Virus record (IMG/VR): IMGVR_UViG_3300014720_004476
Coordinates: 1 to 21,524 of that record
DNA length: 21,524 bases
Direction: 5' to 3' (one strand)
Origin: a virus
The notes below the pieces were generated by a model, which saw nothing but the letters and a program-made list of their open reading frames with translations, ran no database searches and was not told the origin of the DNA. The translations under genes were made by a program, and so were the position numbers. How positions within the stretch are numbered: position 1 is the first letter of the stretch; every line of letters begins with the position of its first letter. Of the stretch, positions 7,531 to 21,524 are shown piece after piece.

Positions 7531-7800
7531 TTATTTCTTAGAAGATTTTTCTAAGGTGAGAGGAAGTTGTGATACAAAACCATTAAGAATCTGAGCTTTA
7601 TTAATGATTTCAGCTTCTGTTGGATAATGAGGATATCCAGGATGATCTGGTGGTTGTGTTCCAGCGTGACGGGCATTTTCTACTTTAGTAGTCCAGTCAT
7701 TGGAAATAGATTCACGTTTACCATAATAATCTTGCTCAAGCATGGTCTGAGCCATTTTAAGAAGCTCTAACCTAATTTCAAACGGTGACATATTACTCAT
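7531..7800 (-). CDS. Conserved small phage protein of unknown function
   Basis: An 89-residue protein. The N-terminal MSPFEIRLELLKMAQTMLEQ is an amphipathic helix, then comes a Pro-rich middle (PPDHPGYPHYP) and a second helix EAEIINKAQILNGFVSQLP. From memory this arrangement occurs in many T4-like phages of aquatic bacteria, without a known role. A good AAGGAG stands 8-9 nt before the ATG, and a CACACA-rich leader resembles that of the outer-membrane protein gene upstream. A start at the fourth codon (MSPFEIR) is possible. Confidence 0.75.
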   Translation of the reverse strand: MSNMSPFEIRLELLKMAQTMLEQDYYGKRESISNDWTTKVENARHAGTQPPDHPGYPHYPTEAEIINKAQILNGFVSQLPLTLEKSSKK

Positions 7801-7831
7801 TTACTACTCCTTGTGTTTGTGTGTGAAAAAT

Positions 7832-7859
7832 GGTGGATTTAAAGGTTCCACCGAACCTT
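7832..7859 (-). terminator. Possible terminator with two mutually exclusive hairpins
   Basis: Directly after the outer-membrane protein gene, the minus strand can form AAGGTTC-GGTG-GAACCTT (7842-7859, 7 bp). Alternatively it can form GGTGG / CCACC (7848-7852 with 7832-7836) followed by ATTTTTC, which looks like a Rho-independent terminator. Both cannot form together. Whether this is simple termination or attenuation before the gene at 7800 is open. Confidence 0.45.
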
Positions 7860-7863
7860 AATT

Positions 7864-8406
7864 TTAATAGGCTACACGTAGCCCAACACCAACTGCTTTT
7901 TCTTGAATGTCCTGTAAAGAACGACTCATGCTGGCGCTAACACTAACTGCTTTGTTGAGAGGCATACTGGCGCCTAACCAAGTAACAGTCTGCTTTGGAT
8001 TATCAGTGTCCCAATTTACTCGAGTCTTAACACCAGTAAAAGCGAATAGAGGACCAATAGGAACTCCTGCTTTGAGACCGACTAAGCCATAAGTAAAATC
8101 ACCGTTGACTTTACCATTAAAACCATTGTCATAACCTACACCGCCGAATGCATTAAGACCGGCAATGTTTTTACCTGCAGTAACTTCGACACTATTAAGC
8201 ATTCCGCCTTTATCAAAAACTGCTGTTCGAACCTGAAGATCCAAATTAAGTCCAGCCATATCTTTACCGGCACGGAAATACTGTGCAGTACTTTCTGCTT
8301 TGTTGCGAGTATCCTTAACTTGATCTACATCGAAACTTACATAATTAGCAGCTTGAGAAGTTGCCGCAGCTGTTGCTAAAGCTAATGCTAAAATTGTCTT
8401 TTTCAT
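7864..8406 (-). CDS. Phage-encoded outer-membrane beta-barrel-like protein
   Basis: A 180-residue protein from the ATG at 8406. This start has a strong AAGGAG 6 nt upstream and gives a classical Sec signal peptide (MKKTILALALATAAATSQA, cleavage before ANYV). An upstream ATG at 8445 would only add 13 residues inside the tmRNA pseudoknot. The mature part alternates hydrophobic and polar residues with many Gly and turns (TYGLVGLKAGVPIGPLFAFTG), and ends in the aromatic residue of VGVGLRVAY, a typical barrel-assembly C-terminus. It should insert in the host outer membrane. Blocking of superinfection or altering permeability are guesses. It follows the tmRNA coding piece; its ribosome-binding site is complementary to the loop of the upstream hairpin. 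Confidence 0.72.
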   Translation of the reverse strand: MKKTILALALATAAATSQAANYVSFDVDQVKDTRNKAESTAQYFRAGKDMAGLNLDLQVRTAVFDKGGMLNSVEVTAGKNIAGLNAFGGVGYDNGFNGKVNGDFTYGLVGLKAGVPIGPLFAFTGVKTRVNWDTDNPKQTVTWLGASMPLNKAVSVSASMSRSLQDIQEKAVGVGLRVAY

Positions 8407-8413
8407 TGAATCT

Positions 8414-8456
8414 CCTTGTGTGTGAGGCAGTTCGTTTGGTAACAAGGTGAACTGCC
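8414..8456 (-). promoter_or_regulatory. H-type pseudoknot that includes the Shine-Dalgarno of the downstream gene
   Basis: On the minus strand, stem 1 is GGCAGTTC (8456-8449) with GAACTGCC (8433-8426), 8 perfect pairs. Six loop bases, CCTTGT (8447-8442), are perfectly complementary to ACAAGG (8419-8414), which is the first part of the AAGGAG ribosome-binding site of the beta-barrel gene. This is probably the 3'-terminal pseudoknot of the tmRNA coding piece. If it forms in the long transcript it would hide the ribosome-binding site. Confidence 0.65.
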
Positions 8457-8604
8457 AAAACCCCGTCAGGTTTAAGCGACTAGCTTAAGATCCTGATAGA
8501 AATAGTCGTTGTTTGCGTCTATTTAGTTTGCTAGGATTACGTCCTTCGCCTTACGAGTTGTCCACTTACTTACTATTTGCCCCGTCGAAACCAGAATCAG
8601 GCCC
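8414..8604 (-). ncRNA. tmRNA coding piece with tag ANNDYFYQDLKLVA
   Basis: It starts at 8604 with GGGCCTG, then the tmRNA D-loop-like consensus. The resume codon is GCA at 8516-8514, preceded by AAATAGAC as in other tmRNAs (AATAGTC in E. coli). The encoded tag is ANNDYFYQDLKLVA, stop TAA at 8474-8472. The tag end and stop lie in a strong P5-like hairpin: TCAGG/CCTGA (8496-8492 with 8470-8466) and inside it TTAAGC/GCTTAA (8488-8483 with 8477-8472). A pseudoknot follows at 8456-8414. The 3' end is inferred from that pseudoknot. Confidence 0.85.
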
Positions 8605-8748
8605 CTCAGAAAATAACTTTAAGATTCTTTCAGTTTGTTGCTCAATTTCGCAAGACTGTTTTATAATCAACTCTCGTTGTTTATCAATATCAACCTTGTT
8701 TAATTGTTCATCTATAAATTTTTTAACTGACTCCATAACTGACTCCAT
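8566..8748 (-). CDS. Small ORF in the intervening segment of the permuted tmRNA
   Basis: A 60-codon frame that starts 24 nt after the tmRNA CCA end. GAGGAG stands 6 nt before the first ATG, an ideal ribosome-binding site. The product starts MESVMESVKKFIDEQ and is a charged, probably coiled-coil peptide up to about residue 46. The last 13 or so codons run into the 5' end of the tmRNA coding piece (SEGPDSGFDGANSK is the tRNA-like 5' end read as protein), so translation and tmRNA function would compete on the same RNA. It could be a real peptide or a remnant. I do not recognise a family. Confidence 0.45.
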   Translation of the reverse strand: MESVMESVKKFIDEQLNKVDIDKQRELIIKQSCEIEQQTERILKLFSEGPDSGFDGANSK

Positions 8749-8758
8749 AACTGACTCC
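8725..8758. repeat. Three tandem copies of a 12-bp unit at the start of the intervening ORF
   Basis: AACTGACTCC occurs three times with a 12-bp period (8725, 8737, 8749). Read on the minus strand it covers GGAGTCAGTT with ATG after two of the copies, so both the ribosome-binding site and two alternative start codons come from the same repeat. Confidence 0.85.
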
Positions 8759-8771
8759 TCGAATTATTTTT

Positions 8772-8840
8772 TGGTGGACCTGGGCGGAATCGAACCGCCG
8801 TCCGCAGCACGTTTCTGCTTGCTTCATACAACTATATGAA
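8772..8840 (-). ncRNA. tmRNA acceptor piece (3' half of the tRNA-like domain)
   Basis: Read on the minus strand it contains the conserved GCGGACG, then a T-arm GGCGG-TTCGATT-CCGCC (8799-8783), then the acceptor strand CAGGTCC, discriminator A and an encoded CCA ending at 8772. Six bases AGTTGT (8833-8828) are complementary to ACAACT (8561-8556) in the coding piece and could form part of helix P2, so the mature 5' end should lie at or above 8833. The AhpD-like gene stops at 8847, so the piece fits exactly in the gap. Confidence 0.85.
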
Positions 8841-8846
8841 TATATA

Positions 8847-9359
8847 TTAGTTATTCAAGACTCTAGATACTGCAGTAATTACAGCAGCGATACGGCCAAT
8901 GTCTCGTAACTGTTCTGTAGTATAGCCTTCTTTTTTCAAAGTCTCGTAATGAGCTTTGACGCAAAAATGACACTTACCCACAATACTAGCGGCTAGACTG
9001 TATGCTTCAAACCTCGCCTTAGTAGTACCGCCATGACTAGCAATAGCATTCATTCTTAACTGCGCTGGAAGACCTTTTAAGTTATCATCTTCCGCCATTT
9101 CGACATAGGGGTACCAAGTATTTGTCATTGACATTATACTTCCTGCCGTAAGTGCAGCATCTGCTTCATTACGTTCTAAAATCACACTATGTAACCAAGT
9201 CCAAAATTTAACGTTACCGGTGGCAAATGCTGCTGCAACAGCAATGGCTTCAGCCTCATTGGCTGGAATGCTGCTACGCTTAATTACTGCATCCAGATTA
9301 AGTCTTGTATCCTTGGCATAATCTGGAATAGTTTCTTTTAAATTATCAACCCAACTCAT
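8847..9359 (-). CDS. ahpD: AhpD-like alkylhydroperoxidase
   Basis: A 170-residue, all-helical protein of the AhpD/CMD superfamily, close to the 177 residues of M. tuberculosis AhpD. The redox motif GKCHFCVKAH gives C130, C133 and H137, with E118 twelve residues before the first Cys; these match the positions of the proton-relay residues in the mycobacterial enzyme. The His between the cysteines is one position earlier than usual (C-H-F-C). AhpD reduces AhpC through its C-x-x-C, taking electrons from lipoylated proteins. An AhpC-type peroxiredoxin is encoded two genes upstream. The start overlaps the end of the homing endonuclease gene by ATGA and has its own AAGGA, so it can be translated when the endonuclease is. 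Confidence 0.87.
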   Translation of the reverse strand: MSWVDNLKETIPDYAKDTRLNLDAVIKRSSIPANEAEAIAVAAAFATGNVKFWTWLHSVILERNEADAALTAGSIMSMTNTWYPYVEMAEDDNLKGLPAQLRMNAIASHGGTTKARFEAYSLAASIVGKCHFCVKAHYETLKKEGYTTEQLRDIGRIAAVITAVSRVLNN

Positions 9360-10111
9360 TCATCATCCTTATTTTTACATCTATCAAAATGATATCTAAC
9401 TAAATTGTGTTTTGCCCCGGATATATTGCAATGAGGGCAAATTACTTTTTCTAAAATTCTTCCTTGTTTCCAACCCAAATTCAAATAACTATTTAAATCC
9501 TCTTTATTAACCTTTTTATGATACACGCCATCATTGATCCATTTAGTATTGGCAACTAATATAGAAAGTTTTTGCTTAGTAATATCACTATGTAATCTAC
9601 CTATTGCCTTACTTCGTATTTTATTTCTACGAATTTCTTCTTGTTCTTTGGGTCTACTTAATTGGCCCAAAGACATTAATAATTTAGTTTCTTCAGATTT
9701 TTTTCTATTTTTCAAAGTTAATGATCTTTTAATGTTACTCTCTTTAGTTTGTTTTTTATTTTTTTGCGATAAAAGAGCTTTTTCGCTCGCTGGTCCATAA
9801 TTGCTAAACTTTTTACCACCCATATTCTTATTAAGCCAATCTGATTTTTTTAAAGCATTAACTTTTTTCAAAAATCTATATTCATAATCTAAAGCTTCTT
9901 GCGGTGTTTTAAATTTTTTTCTTACAGAGGCAAAAAAAGAATCAGTCCCATATTCTTGGATTAATTTATGAATTTTAACTGAAGAAGTAAAGTATCCATC
10001 TTTTTTCCAAAATAAACTTGGATTACTATTTTTAGCATATTTGGAACCATAATACTTCAATCCAGTTGGTTTGTGATAAACATAATAAGTATACGGTGTT
10101 TGGGCAGACAT
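9356..10111 (-). CDS. Free-standing homing endonuclease, GIY-YIG-like with C-terminal zinc finger
   Basis: A 251-residue protein. Residues 8-30 (YYVYHKPTGLKYYGSKYAKN) resemble a diverged GIY-YIG nuclease core, with a likely catalytic Glu in LDYEYRFLKK near residue 75. The middle is Lys/Ser-rich with NUMOD3-like DNA-binding repeats (KKSEETKLLMS, HSDITKQKLS). The C-terminus has a zinc finger CPHC...HFDRC seen in many T4-like phage homing endonucleases. Such genes spread by cutting alleles that lack them. This one lies between ahpC and ahpD and overlaps the latter by 4 nt. Expression appears controlled by the inverted repeat at 10100-10151. The nuclease subtype is less certain than the general assignment. 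Confidence 0.8.
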   Translation of the reverse strand: MSAQTPYTYYVYHKPTGLKYYGSKYAKNSNPSLFWKKDGYFTSSVKIHKLIQEYGTDSFFASVRKKFKTPQEALDYEYRFLKKVNALKKSDWLNKNMGGKKFSNYGPASEKALLSQKNKKQTKESNIKRSLTLKNRKKSEETKLLMSLGQLSRPKEQEEIRRNKIRSKAIGRLHSDITKQKLSILVANTKWINDGVYHKKVNKEDLNSYLNLGWKQGRILEKVICPHCNISGAKHNLVRYHFDRCKNKDDE

Positions 10112-10155: not shown

Positions 10156-10731
10156 TTATAGTGTTTCCTCACCTATCTCCCTAGAACAGGCGCACAATTC
10201 TCCAGTTTGACATGCATCAAGAATACGAAGTGTCTCCTCTGGGCTTCTACCAACATTTAAGTTATTAACCGTTATGTGTTGTATAACATTATTTGGATCA
10301 ACAATGAAGGTAGCTCTTAAAGGTACACCATTTACTTTATCCAAAATACCTAACGTAGCAGCCAAACCATTCTCGACATAGCGATCGTTATTATAATCTT
10401 GCGATTGTTTAATTAAATCTGCAAACATCCATGAATTAGTTTTCTTTAAATCTTCGTGATGATTTTTCCAGGCTAATAAACAATATTCATTATCTGTACA
10501 ACCCATTAATAAGATTGTATCGCGATCTTTAAAATCACCATTTAATTTATCATATCCTACGATTTCTGTAGGGCATACGAACGTAAATGATTTTGGATAG
10601 AACATAATCACTTTCCACTTACCAGGGAAAGATTGTTCCGTTAGGTCCTCAAAGGCACCTTCGGGTGTAAGAGCACCGGGCTTTACACCAACGATATTAA
10701 ACGGTTCTAGATTATCACCAACAGTCAGCAT
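10156..10731 (-). CDS. ahpC: AhpC-type 2-Cys peroxiredoxin
   Basis: A 191-residue protein from the ATG at 10731. This start has AAGGA 8-9 nt upstream and gives the usual AhpC beginning (MLTVGDNLEPF); the longer frame adds 19 basic residues that do not look like the family. The peroxidatic cysteine is C53 in FTFVCPTEIVGYDKL. The C-terminus has TGELCACS, with C180 and C182 as a C-x-C like that of M. tuberculosis AhpC (C174/C176), a type reduced by AhpD rather than by AhpF. C174 in LDACQTGE is a further candidate resolving residue. It reduces hydrogen peroxide and organic peroxides in the cytoplasm. Its AhpD partner follows after an inserted endonuclease gene. Confidence 0.92.
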   Translation of the reverse strand: MLTVGDNLEPFNIVGVKPGALTPEGAFEDLTEQSFPGKWKVIMFYPKSFTFVCPTEIVGYDKLNGDFKDRDTILLMGCTDNEYCLLAWKNHHEDLKKTNSWMFADLIKQSQDYNNDRYVENGLAATLGILDKVNGVPLRATFIVDPNNVIQHITVNNLNVGRSPEETLRILDACQTGELCACSREIGEETL

Positions 10732-10788
10732 TTGTTTTTTCCTTTTTAGCTTAAATGTTTTTAGGGGAGGGTATCTTCGCATAGACAT

Positions 10789-10817
10789 ATTATATAAGAA
10801 TAAGACTATAAAGTCTA
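10789..10817 (-). promoter_or_regulatory. Candidate sigma70-type promoter for ahpC
   Basis: Minus strand: TAGACT (10817-10812), 17-nt spacer, TATAAT (10794-10789). The -10 box is perfect and the -35 box matches four of six. The -35 box overlaps an inverted repeat AGACT-TTAT-AGTCT (10803-10816), a possible operator or weak hairpin at the end of the nuclease gene. It would give host-polymerase expression of ahpC and downstream genes. Confidence 0.55.
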
Positions 10818-11474
10818 GTCTTTAGTTGATCTTTCGTAATCGTCGCGCATCTTTAGTAATTTGCCAGCAAAATCGTCTCTTTTCTTATGAAAAATCTGAG
10901 GATAATCATTTTCTACAGCGATTAAAATAGTAATTCTTGGAACAGGAATCTTGTATCTTTCTTCAAACATAATGGCATATGCTGTTGCTTGTACAAAATA
11001 TCCTTCTATCCAATCTTCTCTTTTAGGTTTAGATGAAGTTTTAAAATCTATCACGTTCATTTTACCCTTGTATTCAGCAATACAATCTACTGTACCAGCT
11101 AATCTTAAATGGTCGGAATACAAATATTTTTCTTGTAAATGAATATTATCTATATGGTTTAAATAAGGCAGAACAGATTTAAACATCTCCAGATGGACAG
11201 GATTTTCAATTTCCATATCTTGATTTGCTAGATATTTTTCTACTATGGAATGTATTTTAGTACCTCTTGTAGATGCTGCCCTGGATATTTTATTTGCTTC
11301 CTCGTGCCCTATTTTATTTCTCCATTCATTTATAGCTTGCCTGCTAAAATAAGAAAGCATAGTTGTCACAGAAGGGTATTTGTTGCCCTCGGGTGTTAGA
11401 TAAAATCTTTTACCCGATTCTTCTGTGACTTGTTTTAAATCTAGATTAGGCACCGTAACATGATTAAATAGCAT
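10815..11474 (-). CDS. PD-(D/E)XK exonuclease, RecB/Cas4-like
   Basis: A 219-residue protein with the RecB-type nuclease motifs in order: a metal-binding His in RGTKIHSIVEKYL (H75), a Glu in LQEKYLYSD, D130 in LAGTVDCIAEY, and D143-x-K145 in NVIDFKTSSKP. A QxxxY motif stands at Q162/Y166 (YFVQATAYAIMF). This fold cuts DNA with Mg2+, usually as an exonuclease; phage members act in recombination, repair or host DNA breakdown. No iron-sulfur cysteines of the Cas4 type are visible (only one Cys). It starts 1 nt after the stop of the endolysin gene. Confidence 0.85.
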   Translation of the reverse strand: MLFNHVTVPNLDLKQVTEESGKRFYLTPEGNKYPSVTTMLSYFSRQAINEWRNKIGHEEANKISRAASTRGTKIHSIVEKYLANQDMEIENPVHLEMFKSVLPYLNHIDNIHLQEKYLYSDHLRLAGTVDCIAEYKGKMNVIDFKTSSKPKREDWIEGYFVQATAYAIMFEERYKIPVPRITILIAVENDYPQIFHKKRDDFAGKLLKMRDDYERSTKD

Positions 11475-11475
11475 A

Positions 11476-12108
11476 TTATTCTTGTAATACTTCTAAAGCG
11501 TGATTATAATGTTTAATACGATCTTCTAATCCTATAAATCCACCATTAATTTTCTTAGTTAAAGTTTTAATATCTTGAGCATCTGCCTGCTCATTTAATT
11601 TATTTGCATACCAAAACCAACAGGCAGAATGCAAGGCATAATAGGGTTGAACTAAAACATCTGGCATTCTTATTAAAGTATCATCCTCAAATAAGAACTG
11701 AGAACATCTGGAATAATTAGATTTACCGGTAAGTTGAATTAATCCTCTGCCTCTAAATTTATACCCTTCACCGCTTGACTCATCTCCATTGCCCATTCTA
11801 TTAGAATAGACTCTATTAGCTATCTTTTCAGGTTGACGATGATATGCTTGTGCCATTTCCGCAGTAGGAAAATATTTTGGAAATATTTTTCTTAATCCAT
11901 CAGCAGAATAATTTAAATTTTCTGATAGTGCAGTAAATCCTGCAGACTCATGTGCACACTGAGCAATAAATGCAGCAACTCTAGCAACATCACTAATATG
12001 ATATTGAGGAAGAGCATCGCACACAGCTTCGTACCATTCGCTTATATTTTTTACTCGAGGAATTAATTTTTGTAGTTTATGCTCAGTAAAATCGAAGTCA
12101 AATGACAT
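11476..12108 (-). CDS. GH19 chitinase-like endolysin
   Basis: A 210-residue single-domain protein of glycoside hydrolase family 19, the type used as endolysin by many phages of Gram-negatives. AAFIAQCAHESAGF contains the catalytic acid E54, LSENLNYSADGL contains the likely second Glu (E63), and SGEGYKFRGRGLIQLTGKSNY at about 112-132 is the family substrate-cleft signature. No signal peptide or membrane anchor is present, so it would need a holin or another exit route; none is obvious nearby. It overlaps the iscU gene by 11 nt. Confidence 0.92.
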   Translation of the reverse strand: MSFDFDFTEHKLQKLIPRVKNISEWYEAVCDALPQYHISDVARVAAFIAQCAHESAGFTALSENLNYSADGLRKIFPKYFPTAEMAQAYHRQPEKIANRVYSNRMGNGDESSGEGYKFRGRGLIQLTGKSNYSRCSQFLFEDDTLIRMPDVLVQPYYALHSACWFWYANKLNEQADAQDIKTLTKKINGGFIGLEDRIKHYNHALEVLQE

Positions 12109-12484
12109 TATGCTTCTCCTTAAAATCTTTTATAGCTGCCTTAATTGCATCTTCTGCTAAAATTGAGCAATGGATCTTTACTGGAGGTAACGCGAGTTCT
12201 TCTGCAATTTGTACATTTTTAATTTCACCTGCTTGATCAAGTGTTTTTCCTTTGACCCATTCTGTTACTAACGAGCTACTTGCAATAGCTGAACCACATC
12301 CATACGTCTTAAACTTAGCGTCAGTAATTATACCTTCTTCGTTAACCTGTATTTGTAGTTTCATCACATCACCACATGCCGGGGCACCCACCATACCTGT
12401 CCCAATACGCTTTAATTCTTTAGCGAAAGATCCCACATTGCGAGGATTTTCATAATGATCTAATACTTGTGTTGAATATGCCAT
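12098..12484 (-). CDS. iscU: IscU iron-sulfur cluster scaffold protein
   Basis: A 128-residue protein, the same length as E. coli IscU and very similar along its whole length. All cluster ligands are in place with the E. coli numbering: C37 and D39 (GAPACGDVMKLQI), C63 (KTYGCGSAIASSS), H105 and C106 (KIHCSILAEDA). The HscA-binding LPPVK motif is at 99-103. It holds nascent [2Fe-2S] clusters built from IscS sulfur and should plug into the host Isc machinery, because no cysteine desulfurase is encoded in this window. The start follows the stop of the A-type carrier gene directly (TAAATG), so the two are co-translated. Confidence 0.95.
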   Translation of the reverse strand: MAYSTQVLDHYENPRNVGSFAKELKRIGTGMVGAPACGDVMKLQIQVNEEGIITDAKFKTYGCGSAIASSSLVTEWVKGKTLDQAGEIKNVQIAEELALPPVKIHCSILAEDAIKAAIKDFKEKHNVI

Positions 12485-12805
12485 TTAAACTGAAAAAGAT
12501 GATCCGCAACCACACGTATTAGTTGCGTTAGGATTTTTTATTACAAACTGTGCAGAAGTTAAATCTTTTTTGTAATCTATTTCTGCTCCCTCAAGATATG
12601 ACATCGACATAGCATCTATTAATATTTTAACACCTTCTTTCTCAAAGATAAAGTCATCTTCGGCTTGATTCTCATCAAAAGTAAATCCGTAAGAAAAACC
12701 TGAACAACCTCCACCTTGTACAAAAATTCTTAAAGGTGACGAATCGTTTTCTTCAATTTGTACCATCTTAATTTGGTCATACGCTTTGTCTGTAACTTGT
12801 AACAT
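12485..12805 (-). CDS. iscA: A-type iron-sulfur carrier protein (IscA/ErpA)
   Basis: A 106-residue protein with the three invariant cysteines of A-type carriers: C34 in [13 protein letters not shown], and C98 and C100 in [10 protein letters not shown]. It passes Fe-S clusters from scaffold to target enzymes. The sequence [14 protein letters not shown] recalls ErpA as much as IscA, so the subtype is open. GGAGGAAGA precedes the ATG, and a late-promoter-like AATAAATA lies just upstream. It is followed without gap by iscU, forming a two-gene Fe-S module. Confidence 0.93.
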
Positions 12806-17951: not shown

Positions 17952-20900
17952 TTATCTATTTTCTAACGCAATAATTTTTGTTCTTAATTCATCAACTTCA
18001 TTTACTAATTGTTTAATCGTATTAACTATAATAGGTATTAAATGATCAATAGTTACATGCAATTTACTATTATCTTGATCACTTACAATTACAGGATCAT
18101 TTCCTTCAATTTCTAAAATTTCTTGTGCACTAAAACCATAACGTTTCTTGATATCTGTAATTACATTAGTATCGCGATTTTTGAAGGAAAATTCAATAGG
18201 GTTAATTCTTCTTAAAAAATCTTTACCATGCGGAACAGGACCAAATACACATTTATCACGGATATCTGAAACTGTTGTCCAACCAATTTGAATTTGAGCA
18301 CAGGAATGACTACTATTGCCCATGATGATACGATTTGATTCTGTGGTAATATTTGCCAAACCTGTTGCACCAACACCAGAGTAACAACCGAAGAAAAGAT
18401 TGTTACTGCCAGTGGTATTGCAGCAACCAGCATTTAAACCAAAGAAATTATTATTGGTCCCAGTGGTATTGTTGCGACCAGCATTGTTACCAAAGAAATT
18501 ATTATGAGTGCCAGTGGTATTGCTGCGACCAGCATATCGACCAATAAAATTATTATGAGTGCCAGTGGTATTGTTGCGACCAGCATACATACCAAAGAAA
18601 TTATTATTACTGCCAGTGGTATTGTTTCCACCAGCTGCACGACCAATAAAATTATTATAACAACCAGTGGTATTATTTAGACCAACATTTTGACCAAAGA
18701 AATTGTTGTATCCGCCACTAGTTGTACTTTTTCCTGCATATCGACCGATAAAAATGTTATGTGATGCTGTATTATTACAACCAGCACATAAACCAATGAA
18801 AGTATTATAACTACCATTGGTATTGTTGAGACCAGCACCTACACCAAAGAAATTATTATGTACGCCAGTGGTATTGCAGCGACCAGCAGAATTACCAAAG
18901 AAATTATTATGACTGCCAGTAGTATTGGAGCGACCAGCAAATGTACCAAAGAAATTATTATTACACCCAGTGGTATTGCAGCAACCAGCATAGAAACCTA
19001 TGAAAGTATTACAACAGCCGTCGGTATTGTAGCGACCAGCAGAATTACCAAAGAAATTATTATAACTACCAGTGGTATTACTACGACCAGCATTTCCACC
19101 AAAGAAATTATTATTACTGCCACTGATATTGCTGAAACCAGCAGAATTACCAAAGAAAAGATTGTTATTGCCAGTGGTATTAGCGCAACCAGCAAATGCA
19201 CCAATGAAAGTATTATTACAGCCATTGGTATTGCAGAAACCAGCATAGCGACCAAAGAAATTATTAGAACCGCCGTCGGTATTGCTGCGACCAGCACTAC
19301 AACCAATGAAATTATTATGAGTGCCAGTGGTATTGCAGCAACCAGCACTACGACCAAAGAAATTATTATTACTGCCAGTAGTATTGTAGCGACCAGCATC
19401 ACGACCAAGGAAATTATTACAACTACCAGTGGTATTGCAGCAACCAGCATTTGAACCGATGAAATTATTATAACAGCCAGTGGTATTAAAGCGACCAGAA
19501 TATTGACCAATGAAAGTATTATAACTACCAGTGGTATTGTTTAAACCAGCAAACATACCAAAGAAATTATTATGATTCCCAGTGGTATTGCCGCGACCAA
19601 CATATCGACCAAAGAAATTATTATGACTGCCTGTGGTATTGCAATTGCCAGCACATGAACCAGCAAAAAAGTTATTAGTGCCGTAAAAACCTGTTCCACC
19701 TATGCAACTTACAATATTATTTGTTCCGCATACATTAAAGGTAGCACTAGCTGCCCCTGATGCACCTTGTACACCTTGAGCGCCTTGGACACCTACACCT
19801 GTTGCGCCTTGGACGCCCTGTGCCCCTTGAGCACCAACTGCACCCTGTGCACCAACTGCACCCTGTGCACCTTGATTACCCTGTGGTCCTGTTGCGCCTT
19901 GGACACCTTGATTACCCTGTGGTCCTATTGCGCCTTGGAAACCTTGATTACCCTGTGCACCAACTGCGCCTTGGTCACCTTGGTTTCCTTGAGGACCTGT
20001 TGCACCTTGGACACCTTGATTGCCCTGTGCACCAACTGCGCCCTGGACACCTTGATTACCCTGTGGTCCTGCAGCTAAAGGAATAGAATTAGCAGAAGTA
20101 ATTCTACCTGTACTATCTATCACCAATCCTACATGATGGGTATTATTACCATAATTTTCTGGAAAAACTCCTGTAGCTGATAATGTAATATTGCCTGTCG
20201 TGTTACTATAAACTATACCATTACCTGTCTTTATTGCTGATAATGTATTAGCATATGCTCTGGTATTAGTATAATATAAGTTTGTACCTTCAATAATATT
20301 ACTTGTGGTAATATTTTGAATAGAGTTTGCATATAATACATTAGCTATTATAGCATTGGGTATAATAACATTACCAGAATCGTTGAATGTAAAAGAATAT
20401 GATCCAGCTTCTATAATAGTATTAGTGAAATTGCCAATAATATTACTAACAGATATGTTTCCAGTTGTAGTTAAATTTCCTACATATAGGTTTGCTGCTG
20501 ATATATTACCGGTATAGAAAGGTAATATAGATATAACATTGGCATACGTTCTTGCATTACTATAGTAAAGATTAGTGCCTTCTGTTACATTACTTGTTGT
20601 TAAATCTACTACATTAGCTTTAAGTGCCAGATTACCTTTAACTGCTTCATATACTCTTAAATCAGTATAATAGAGATTGGTATCTTCAATTACATTACTA
20701 GTTTTAAGATCAGTTACATTAGCTTTAAGGGCTAAATTACCCGTAACTGCTGCATAAACACGAGCATTGGTATAGTATAGATTAGTACCTTCTGATACAT
20801 TTGAAGTAGTTAAATCTACTACATTCGCTTTGGTTGCTAAATTACCCGTAACTGCTGCATAAACACGAGCATTGGTATAGTATAGATTAGTACCTTCTGA

Positions 20901-21524
20901 TACATTTGAAGTAGTTAATAATCCAGATGAAGAAATAGATAATGCCAACTGATTATTACTTACGTTTCCTGTAGCGCCCCCTACAGATGAAACTCCCCCG
21001 GTGATAGTTATAATACCAGTAGAATTATCATAGTTTCCGCTTCCAACAACTGAAATAGCTAATCTTGACCTATCATTACTAAAATAAAGATTTGTACCTT
21101 CCGCTATATCTGTTGTGCTAGTAGGTAAAACATAATAAGTGGAACCATCATTGGTGAAAGACCATCTATCAGTGGATTCGTTCCATTTTATATCTACGTT
21201 ACCGCTTGTCCCCCTATTTAACAGAATCCCTGCATCTTGCGTAGGTACACCAGAATGATTAGAATTTAATACTATCTGATTGTCTGCTAGATACAATTCC
21301 TCAGCATTAATTATTGTAGTATTTCCTGATATAGTTAAATTACCAGTAACAACTACATTACCAAGTGTGACATTGTTGGAAAGTAATGTGATTACGTTAG
21401 AATATGTTCTAGCATTAGTAAAATATAAATTAGTACCTTCTGCTACATTACTTGATGTTAGGTCTACTATATTTGCTTTAAGTGCCAGATTACCTGTAAC
21501 TGCTTCATAAACACGAGCATTGGT
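17952..21524 (-). CDS. Giant repeat tail fibre with collagen-like region and S74 chaperone, 5' end outside window
   Basis: The frame is open through the right edge (the apparent start at 21296 is an internal TTG), so 1190 codons are visible and the N-terminus is missing. From N to C: modules of about 35 residues of the type [20 protein letters not shown]; [19 protein letters not shown], a segment often seen in tail fibres of aquatic T4-like phages; more modules; a Gly-X-Y stretch of about 36 triplets; 25 copies of a 17-residue repeat NTTGxxNNFFGxxAGxx, probably a beta-roll like that of YadA-type adhesin heads; and a C-terminal peptidase S74 intramolecular chaperone starting at VSDIRDK (the Ser codon at 18269-18267 is the likely self-cleavage site), ending in a coiled coil. 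Trimeric receptor-binding fibre is the likely role. Confidence 0.92.
18369..19640 (-). repeat. 51-bp tandem coding repeat, 25 copies
   Basis: Twenty-five in-frame units of 17 codons (one of 16 codons) with consensus NTTGSxNNFFGxxAGRx. Eighteen units begin with N-T-T and one with N-I-S, both N-glycosylation-like sequons. Positions 16-17 and 5-6 often are Cys. The DNA units differ at many positions, so this is an old array under protein-level selection with some near-identical neighbours. Confidence 0.93.
19751..20069 (-). repeat. Collagen-like Gly-X-Y coding repeat
   Basis: About 36 Gly-X-Y triplets, mainly [15 protein letters not shown] and GAT, with a single break (GV) near the C-terminal end. 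There is no Lys, and Pro occurs only in the X position. Typical of phage fibre shafts that form a triple helix. Confidence 0.93.
20731..20918 (-). repeat. 83-bp exact direct repeat with 105-bp period in the fibre gene
   Basis: Bases 20731-20813 and 20836-20918 are identical. They belong to two of the [18 protein letters not shown] modules, which also occur in diverged form at about 20540-20730 and 21400-21524. Perfect identity over 83 bp points to recent duplication or gene conversion. Confidence 0.9.

Follow-up and report, generated by a model that had tools for sequence, protein, structure and literature searches.

A circularly permuted tmRNA of a phage lineage and its intervening spacer as a probable exchangeable gene slot

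Architecture and setting of the tmRNA locus

The window, meaning the whole 21,524-base IMG/VR virus record analyzed here, encodes gp32-, gp33- and gp59-like proteins (Pfam/PHROG), and because of these its gene content identifies it as belonging to a T4-like phage. The same stretch lies on two longer IMG/VR contigs (75.6 and 41.0 kb), with 99.98-100% identity over the loci compared. Host-like metabolic genes occupy 10156-12805 (an AhpC/TSA-family peroxiredoxin, an IscU-like NifU_N protein and an IscA-like Fe-S_biosyn protein), and an ORF of 1114 residues spans 17952-21296; its translation shows collagen-like and NNFFGxxAG repeats and may be that of a tail fibre. A circularly permuted tmRNA gene lies on the minus strand at 8834-8426 (RF04321 and ARAGORN). 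Its upstream neighbor belongs to the carboxymuconolactone decarboxylase family (8847..9359, minus strand, PF02627, E 1.2e-12). The downstream gene (7864..8406, minus strand) starts with an ATG at 8406, ∼20 nt past the 3' hairpin of the tmRNA, and encodes a protein with a signal-peptide-like N-terminus, which neither Pfam nor PHROG matches at E 0.01.

The gene matches the Rfam model for permuted tmRNAs (RF04321, tmRNA_permuted) with 110.1 bits (E 4.7e-21, gathering cut-off 47) over 8833-8472, a span of 362 nt, and this is the sole Rfam match above its cut-off within the window (cmscan). ARAGORN likewise calls one gene in the window, a tmRNA* at 8381-8864(-) with the tag ANNDYFYQDLKLVA. A sequence-only reading of this DNA had proposed a circularly permuted two-piece tmRNA at this place and had named the Rfam two-piece models as the check. 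The general permuted model confirms the proposal on the minus strand. Of the clade models, the betaproteobacterial RF01850 (beta_tmRNA) scores best in the clan and stays under its cut-off (77.6 vs 84 bits). The two outcomes named as contrary to the proposal were the lack of any covariance match and a second, normal tmRNA 5' half; neither holds, as RF04321 does match and the only tmRNA that ARAGORN calls in the window is the permuted one.

Direct reading of the minus strand gives the order acceptor piece with CCA, spacer, coding piece. The acceptor piece (8772..8834, minus strand, 5' end predicted) comprises a D-side strand, the T-arm, the acceptor 3' half CAGGTCC, the discriminator A and an encoded CCA at 8774-8772, as located by RF04321, ARAGORN and the sequence itself. 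The coding piece (8426..8604, minus strand; sequence, ARAGORN and Rfam) opens at 8604 with the acceptor 5' half GGGCCTG, followed by TTTCGAC, the tag frame and the 3' hairpin. The two acceptor halves form seven of seven consecutive pairs, including G3-U70, and the piece ends that had been placed at 8604 and 8772 are exact. The tag frame at 8516-8472 (ANNDYFYQDLKLVA, ARAGORN) has the resume codon GCA and the stop codon TAA, and the P5-like 3' hairpin (GGCAGTTC/GAACTGCC) at 8456-8426 is aligned in part by RF01850. The locus thus combines a covariance match, a 7-bp acceptor stem with G3-U70 and CCA, and a tag frame with resume codon and stop, in line with the earlier view of a phage tmRNA with all core elements and a tag of its own. 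A pseudoknot between the loop of the 3' hairpin (CCUUGU) and the Shine-Dalgarno (SD) site of the downstream gene, visible by eye in the window, was dropped because it is not kept, again by eye, in the relatives L003 and L010.

Between the CCA and the 5' acceptor half lies an intervening spacer of 167 nt (8605..8771, minus strand), with a homologous spacer in L035/L124. It is closed by a stem directly after the CCA, in which 8762..8770 forms nine consecutive pairs (one G-U) with 8610..8618 in register. Most of a nested ORF of 60 codons (P0001, 8566..8748, minus strand; ORF list and sequence) is contained in the spacer, where it opens; its stop lies 39 nt into the 5' half. An SD-like GAGGAG (8755..8760, minus strand) stands 6 nt before its ATG. 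The sequence-only reading had warned of a false gene on the opposite strand, and an ORF is indeed listed there (8513-8839); the sense-strand ORF at 8748-8566, starting inside the spacer, was missing from it. A tandem 12-bp repeat (GGAGTCAGTTAT, window 8760-8725) duplicates the SD-like GGAG and the ATG and is present as a single copy in L124.

The expression context was surveyed over 7800-9400, where a sigma-70 scan returns 3 promoter-like sites vs 3.3 in shuffles and the minus strand holds no terminator-like site. Upstream of the relatives' tmRNAs, the T4-late-like motif [AC]TAAATA is enriched (55/167 vs 10/167 in a control stretch), which suggests late expression of these tmRNAs; no exact copy lies upstream of the window's own. 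BLAST matches span the coding piece together with the downstream gene in 19 of the 29 loci from the 20-base scan described below (window copies excluded). Since a search of 22 viral records, the window included and some perhaps fragments, turned up no SmpB, the host's SmpB would serve the tmRNA. SmpB has been reported in huge phages (available text of PMC7162821).

Relatives and lineage of the tmRNA

Relatives were collected by pattern scans. A 20-base pattern from the window yields 31 viral loci, to which a search with P0001 adds three; ARAGORN calls a tmRNA* in 29 of these 34, many with the tag ANDDYFYQDLKLAA. A looser backbone pattern (TTTCGAC..GG..AG..TGGACAAC) occurs in at least 120 stretches of viral contigs, and ARAGORN calls a tmRNA* at 93 of the 109 loci that were new. 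In bacterial and archaeal contigs (84,980 species) the same pattern finds two stretches and one true tmRNA. L368 was discarded, as it holds no tmRNA; the other, L367, belongs to an uncultured-bacterium MAG, and its nearby ORFs look phage-like by eye. At L367:1803-2456 (UBP17 MAG contig), one T-arm/acceptor/CCA end serves two tmRNAs, a standard bacterial one and a permuted one of phage type. The arrangement reflects either integration at this site or chimeric assembly, and might capture a permuted gene in the course of arising. Two further scans, on the spacer 3' end and the spacer 5' end, bring the total to 364 loci, with tmRNA* in 220, of which 213 could be parsed. The new loci contain tmRNA* in 88 of 109 cases for the 3'-end scan and in 11 of 113 for the 5'-end scan, whose 14-base pattern need not mark a tmRNA.

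Sequence comparison places the window's gene among these viral relatives. By crude global identity, the first 130 nt of its coding piece agree at 92% with the closest other viral sequences (tag ANDDYFYQDLKLAA) and at 63-65% with three bacterial tmRNAs that pass RF01850. These identities, together with the mostly viral occurrence of the backbone pattern, favor a phage lineage over a host gene acquired recently. The earlier suggestion that the phage took its tmRNA from a host with a permuted gene is therefore not supported as a recent event, and an old host origin may apply. The tmRNA could also be a decayed or non-functional remnant of an integration site, as tmRNA genes are known integration sites (available text of PMC11915505) and the window's tag ends in LVA, most relatives' tags ending in AA. 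However, every core element is intact, the 92% identity is to viral tmRNAs with only a slightly different tag, and none of the 14 window ORFs scanned with Pfam/PHROG, out of 54 listed, is an integrase; decay is scarcely credible.

Permuted tmRNAs are common in the phylum of the Sediminimonas MAG, which we take to be Pseudomonadota: 158 of 398 genomes have RF04321 above its cut-off. Infernal match spans were used for these hosts because the parser resolved spacers at only 9 of 50 host loci (L402 and L404 being the same place). The bacterial matches listed include 138 that score 96 bits or more; their spans run from 187 to 332 nt (median 216), compared with 362 nt in the window. Twelve listed matches with lower scores (50-65 bits), whose spans reach 337 nt, were left out. 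The longest host spacer at the nine parsed loci (115 nt) holds no ORF. Four phage isolates, XacN1, QDWS595, X1 and SM1 (L369, L370, L371 and L372), carry permuted tmRNAs by ARAGORN that are missing from their feature tables, and their spacers look non-coding by eye. No isolate phage with a coding spacer was found, and ORF searches in isolates gave no match.

Modular spacers and the genes they hold

The 213 parsed loci contain 159 distinct spacers of 20-273 nt, 144 of which end in TGAT. The closing stem recurs among them: it starts directly after the CCA, ends 4 nt before the 5' half and, over 140 distinct end-pairs, is 90.2% paired in register vs 40.7-56.8% in six controls slid by 1-3. It also covaries, with several pair types at most positions. 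Within this frame the spacers are exchanged. An identical 47-nt spacer occurs in tmRNAs with different tags, L032 (ANDDYFYQDLKLAA) and L002/4/6/7 (ANEEVFALAA), and in 36 of the 87 pairs with spacer cores at least 80% alike the coding pieces are less than 75% alike (random pairs average 67%). The window itself provides such a case. Its spacer core is 96% identical to that of L124/L035, which are one contig (118/123), and the first 200 nt of the coding pieces share 142 identities over 215 columns, 185 of them ungapped (66%). Spacers thus move between quite different phage tmRNA bodies, and non-coding spacers are modular too.

Many longer spacers are filled by an open frame. In the coding test, an ATG had to lie in the first 26 nt and the frame had to stay open to within 16 nt of the spacer end. 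At lengths of at least 106 nt, 32 of 41 spacers pass, against a mean of 1.64 and a maximum of 5 for shuffled interiors (200 rounds) and 0/41 for the reverse complements; the spacer 5'-end scan contributes 1 of 4. The body-only set is the fairer sample because the two spacer-end scans chose on spacer ends, and here 11 of 16 pass (shuffle mean 0.69, maximum 3). At 84-105 nt, 24/39 pass in the whole set vs 6.4 (maximum 12), but the body-only figure of 3/14 vs 1.27 (maximum 6) is not clearly above chance, so the excess in this range rests on the spacer-end scans. Shorter spacers (60-83 nt) pass in 9 of 54 cases vs 4.8 (maximum 9), the other 45 holding no ORF, and 21 of the 80 spacers of at least 84 nt lack one as well.

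Counting GTG and TTG starts where the spacer exceeds 100 nt, 59 distinct spacers are scored as coding, 56 of them with ATG. An SD-like site is present in 47/59 (8/15 in the body-only set). The frame stops at the UGA of the terminal UGAU in 36, just before it in 11, and runs open into the 5' half in 12. The terminal UGA alone is no sign of coding, because UGAU or UAAU terminates non-coding spacers too; UGAU thus belongs to the structure, and coding spacers make use of it. Clustering at 40% identity sorts the 59 ORFs into 38 groups, and 32 of the ORFs look membrane-spanning by a simple hydropathy cut. One, in L171, matches PGDYG (PF14083, 3.4e-6, 27.8 bits vs a cut-off of 27) and phrog_419 (E 9.7e-12). 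None of the 20 protein entries scanned among the spacer ORFs is an endonuclease.

Substitution patterns show that several of these predicted ORF families are under protein-level selection. pN/pS is 0.10 for L119/L215, 0.20 for L110/L024 and 0.31 for L160/L190; in a family of 23-24-residue membrane peptides it is 0.04-0.2 in many close pairs and 0.3-0.9 in more distant ones. Other pairs lie near or above 1 (L155/L186, 0.91; L048/L210, 1.28), and the short frames of L149/L194 and L194/L202 have no synonymous changes. Across 12 chosen pairs, the 121 differences fall on codon positions 1/2/3 as 33/13/75 (p 2e-11, differences taken as independent). One gene family also occurs both inside spacers and elsewhere: the L119 ORF has 12 viral homologs, six of them inside tmRNA spacers (five by ARAGORN, L428 by eye). 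The five ARAGORN-called tmRNAs carry four different tags, and the T-arm of one, L429, looks alphaproteobacterial by eye. The other six homologs have no tmRNA around them, and the five with visible ends differ in their C-termini.

Some non-coding spacers (L069, L098, L003, L014, L120, L165 and L243) contain T-arm-like motifs, perhaps remnants of captured tRNAs; ARAGORN finds tRNAs in 0/76 non-coding spacers by default and in 3/76 under relaxed settings. The cores of coding spacers are more stably folded than their shuffles (mean z -1.41, n=59), which leaves room for a role of RNA structure as well. These motifs, the folding of the coding cores and the modularity of non-coding spacers would all suit a functional non-coding RNA, a regulator or decoy excised from the precursor with the ORFs merely riding along. 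Such an RNA is nevertheless quite improbable, as the non-coding cores themselves barely beat their shuffles (mean z -0.29, n=76), coding spacers show the codon-position bias described above, and Rfam matches in the 11 loci tested were to tmRNA models only.

The window's own ORF is less clear-cut than these families. An SD-like site and a start codon lie near the 5' end of the spacer and the frame is open throughout, with no stop codon inside the spacer. P0001 matches no Pfam or PHROG family and gave no hit in the phages collection. No standalone homolog was found: the viral scan returned three loci, each of them a tmRNA spacer, and two of the three are near-identical duplicates of the window. 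The sole independent homolog (L035/L124) remains in frame, with one 12-nt repeat fewer, a multiple of three, and its spacer (L124) has no SD-like site. The pair differs by five changes, four of them non-synonymous, a pN/pS of 0.85 from five changes only.

The window could accordingly hold an ordinary phage two-piece tmRNA whose spacer is a processing linker and whose ORF is an accident of AT-rich sequence, whatever use other phages make of the slot. The homolog pair, in which protein-level selection is not seen, agrees with this, as do the missing stop within the spacer and the short non-coding spacers of many relatives. But only 10-30 of 2000 shuffles keep the P0001 frame free of stops across the spacer, the SD-like site stands at the usual distance, the length difference from L124 preserves the frame, and relatives' spacers of such length are mostly coding; a mere linker therefore appears rather unlikely, though it deserves weight. 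On these sequence features the balance tips modestly toward P0001 being translated.

Proposed model and known systems

With the tmRNA anatomy, the closing stem and the modularity of the spacers established, the interpretation that we favor and consider probable is that the circularly permuted tmRNA belongs to a phage lineage and that its intervening spacer works as a slot in which genes are exchanged. The precursor would run from acceptor piece through spacer to coding piece, with a stem that extends the acceptor helix beyond the CCA closing the spacer. By analogy with known two-piece tmRNAs, RNase P and tRNA 3'-end enzymes would cut at 8605/8604 and after 8772, and the acceptor helix would keep the two mature pieces together. 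G3-U70 would direct alanine charging and, with host SmpB, stalled products would be tagged with ANNDYFYQDLKLVA. A ribosome-binding site just after the CCA would drive a short ORF that fills the spacer and mostly ends at the UGA of UGAU, and this ORF would be translated from the precursor.

P0001 may be translated from the uncut precursor, or from a non-stop message after the RNase P cut, which would itself be a tmRNA substrate. As that cut leaves an open ORF without its stop codon, the mature tmRNA would tag the product, a possible self-limiting loop. The control of arfA in E. coli is a comparable case of limitation through a non-stop message. In L127 the spacer ORF, one of the open ones, shares its reading frame with the tag, which may be chance; translation of the uncut precursor would, given this continuous frame, yield a protein ending in ANEDSFVAERLAA. 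More speculatively, permuted tmRNA precursors may be dual-purpose in general, providing a mobile slot for small genes across body types in which the open cases are self-limited by maturation and trans-translation, an extension that we regard as possible but doubtful.

If the gene-slot interpretation is true, the discarded middle of the permuted tmRNA gene is a reservoir of genes that annotation can skip, and its use suggests a reason for phages keeping the permuted form. It would also link ribosome rescue to the expression of small phage proteins and offer a direct test case of one transcript serving as both messenger and structured-RNA precursor.

The phage two-piece tmRNA itself is a published kind, and what looks new is the gene-bearing, exchangeable spacer. 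According to the available text of PMC9004378, two-piece structures account for 53 of 133 phage tmRNAs, 50 of the 53 marine or aquatic. The corresponding text of PMC11915505 describes the merging of the clade models into RF04321, lists 79 phage tmRNAs and, among intervening sequences, notes one that contains a tRNA-Ala gene and another that contains a repetitive element. No report of a protein-coding gene inside the spacer of a permuted tmRNA was found in the mainly open-access literature searched on permuted and two-piece tmRNAs.

Four systems invite direct comparison. Relative to the Rfam families RF04321 and RF01850, the window matches the former over its full length, with a span beyond the range of the bacterial matches of at least 96 bits listed above. 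Phage Melnitz (PMC9004378), compared here by its description only, shares with the window a permuted tmRNA gene and T4-like genes, carried in its case by a myophage of aquatic bacteria. However, its tmRNA is alphaproteobacterial-like and accompanied by a glutamine riboswitch, whereas the window's best clade match, below cut-off, is to the betaproteobacterial model, and the available text mentions no spacer gene. The permuted tmRNA with tRNA-Ala (PMC11915505, available text) shares with the window a gene inside the intervening sequence, but that gene encodes an RNA and was seen in a single, nominally archaeal MAG, and no protein gene is reported there. Group I introns with homing-endonuclease genes in tmRNA (same source) resemble the window in placing a protein gene in a part that is removed; unlike these introns, which self-splice, the removed part in the window is the permutation spacer.
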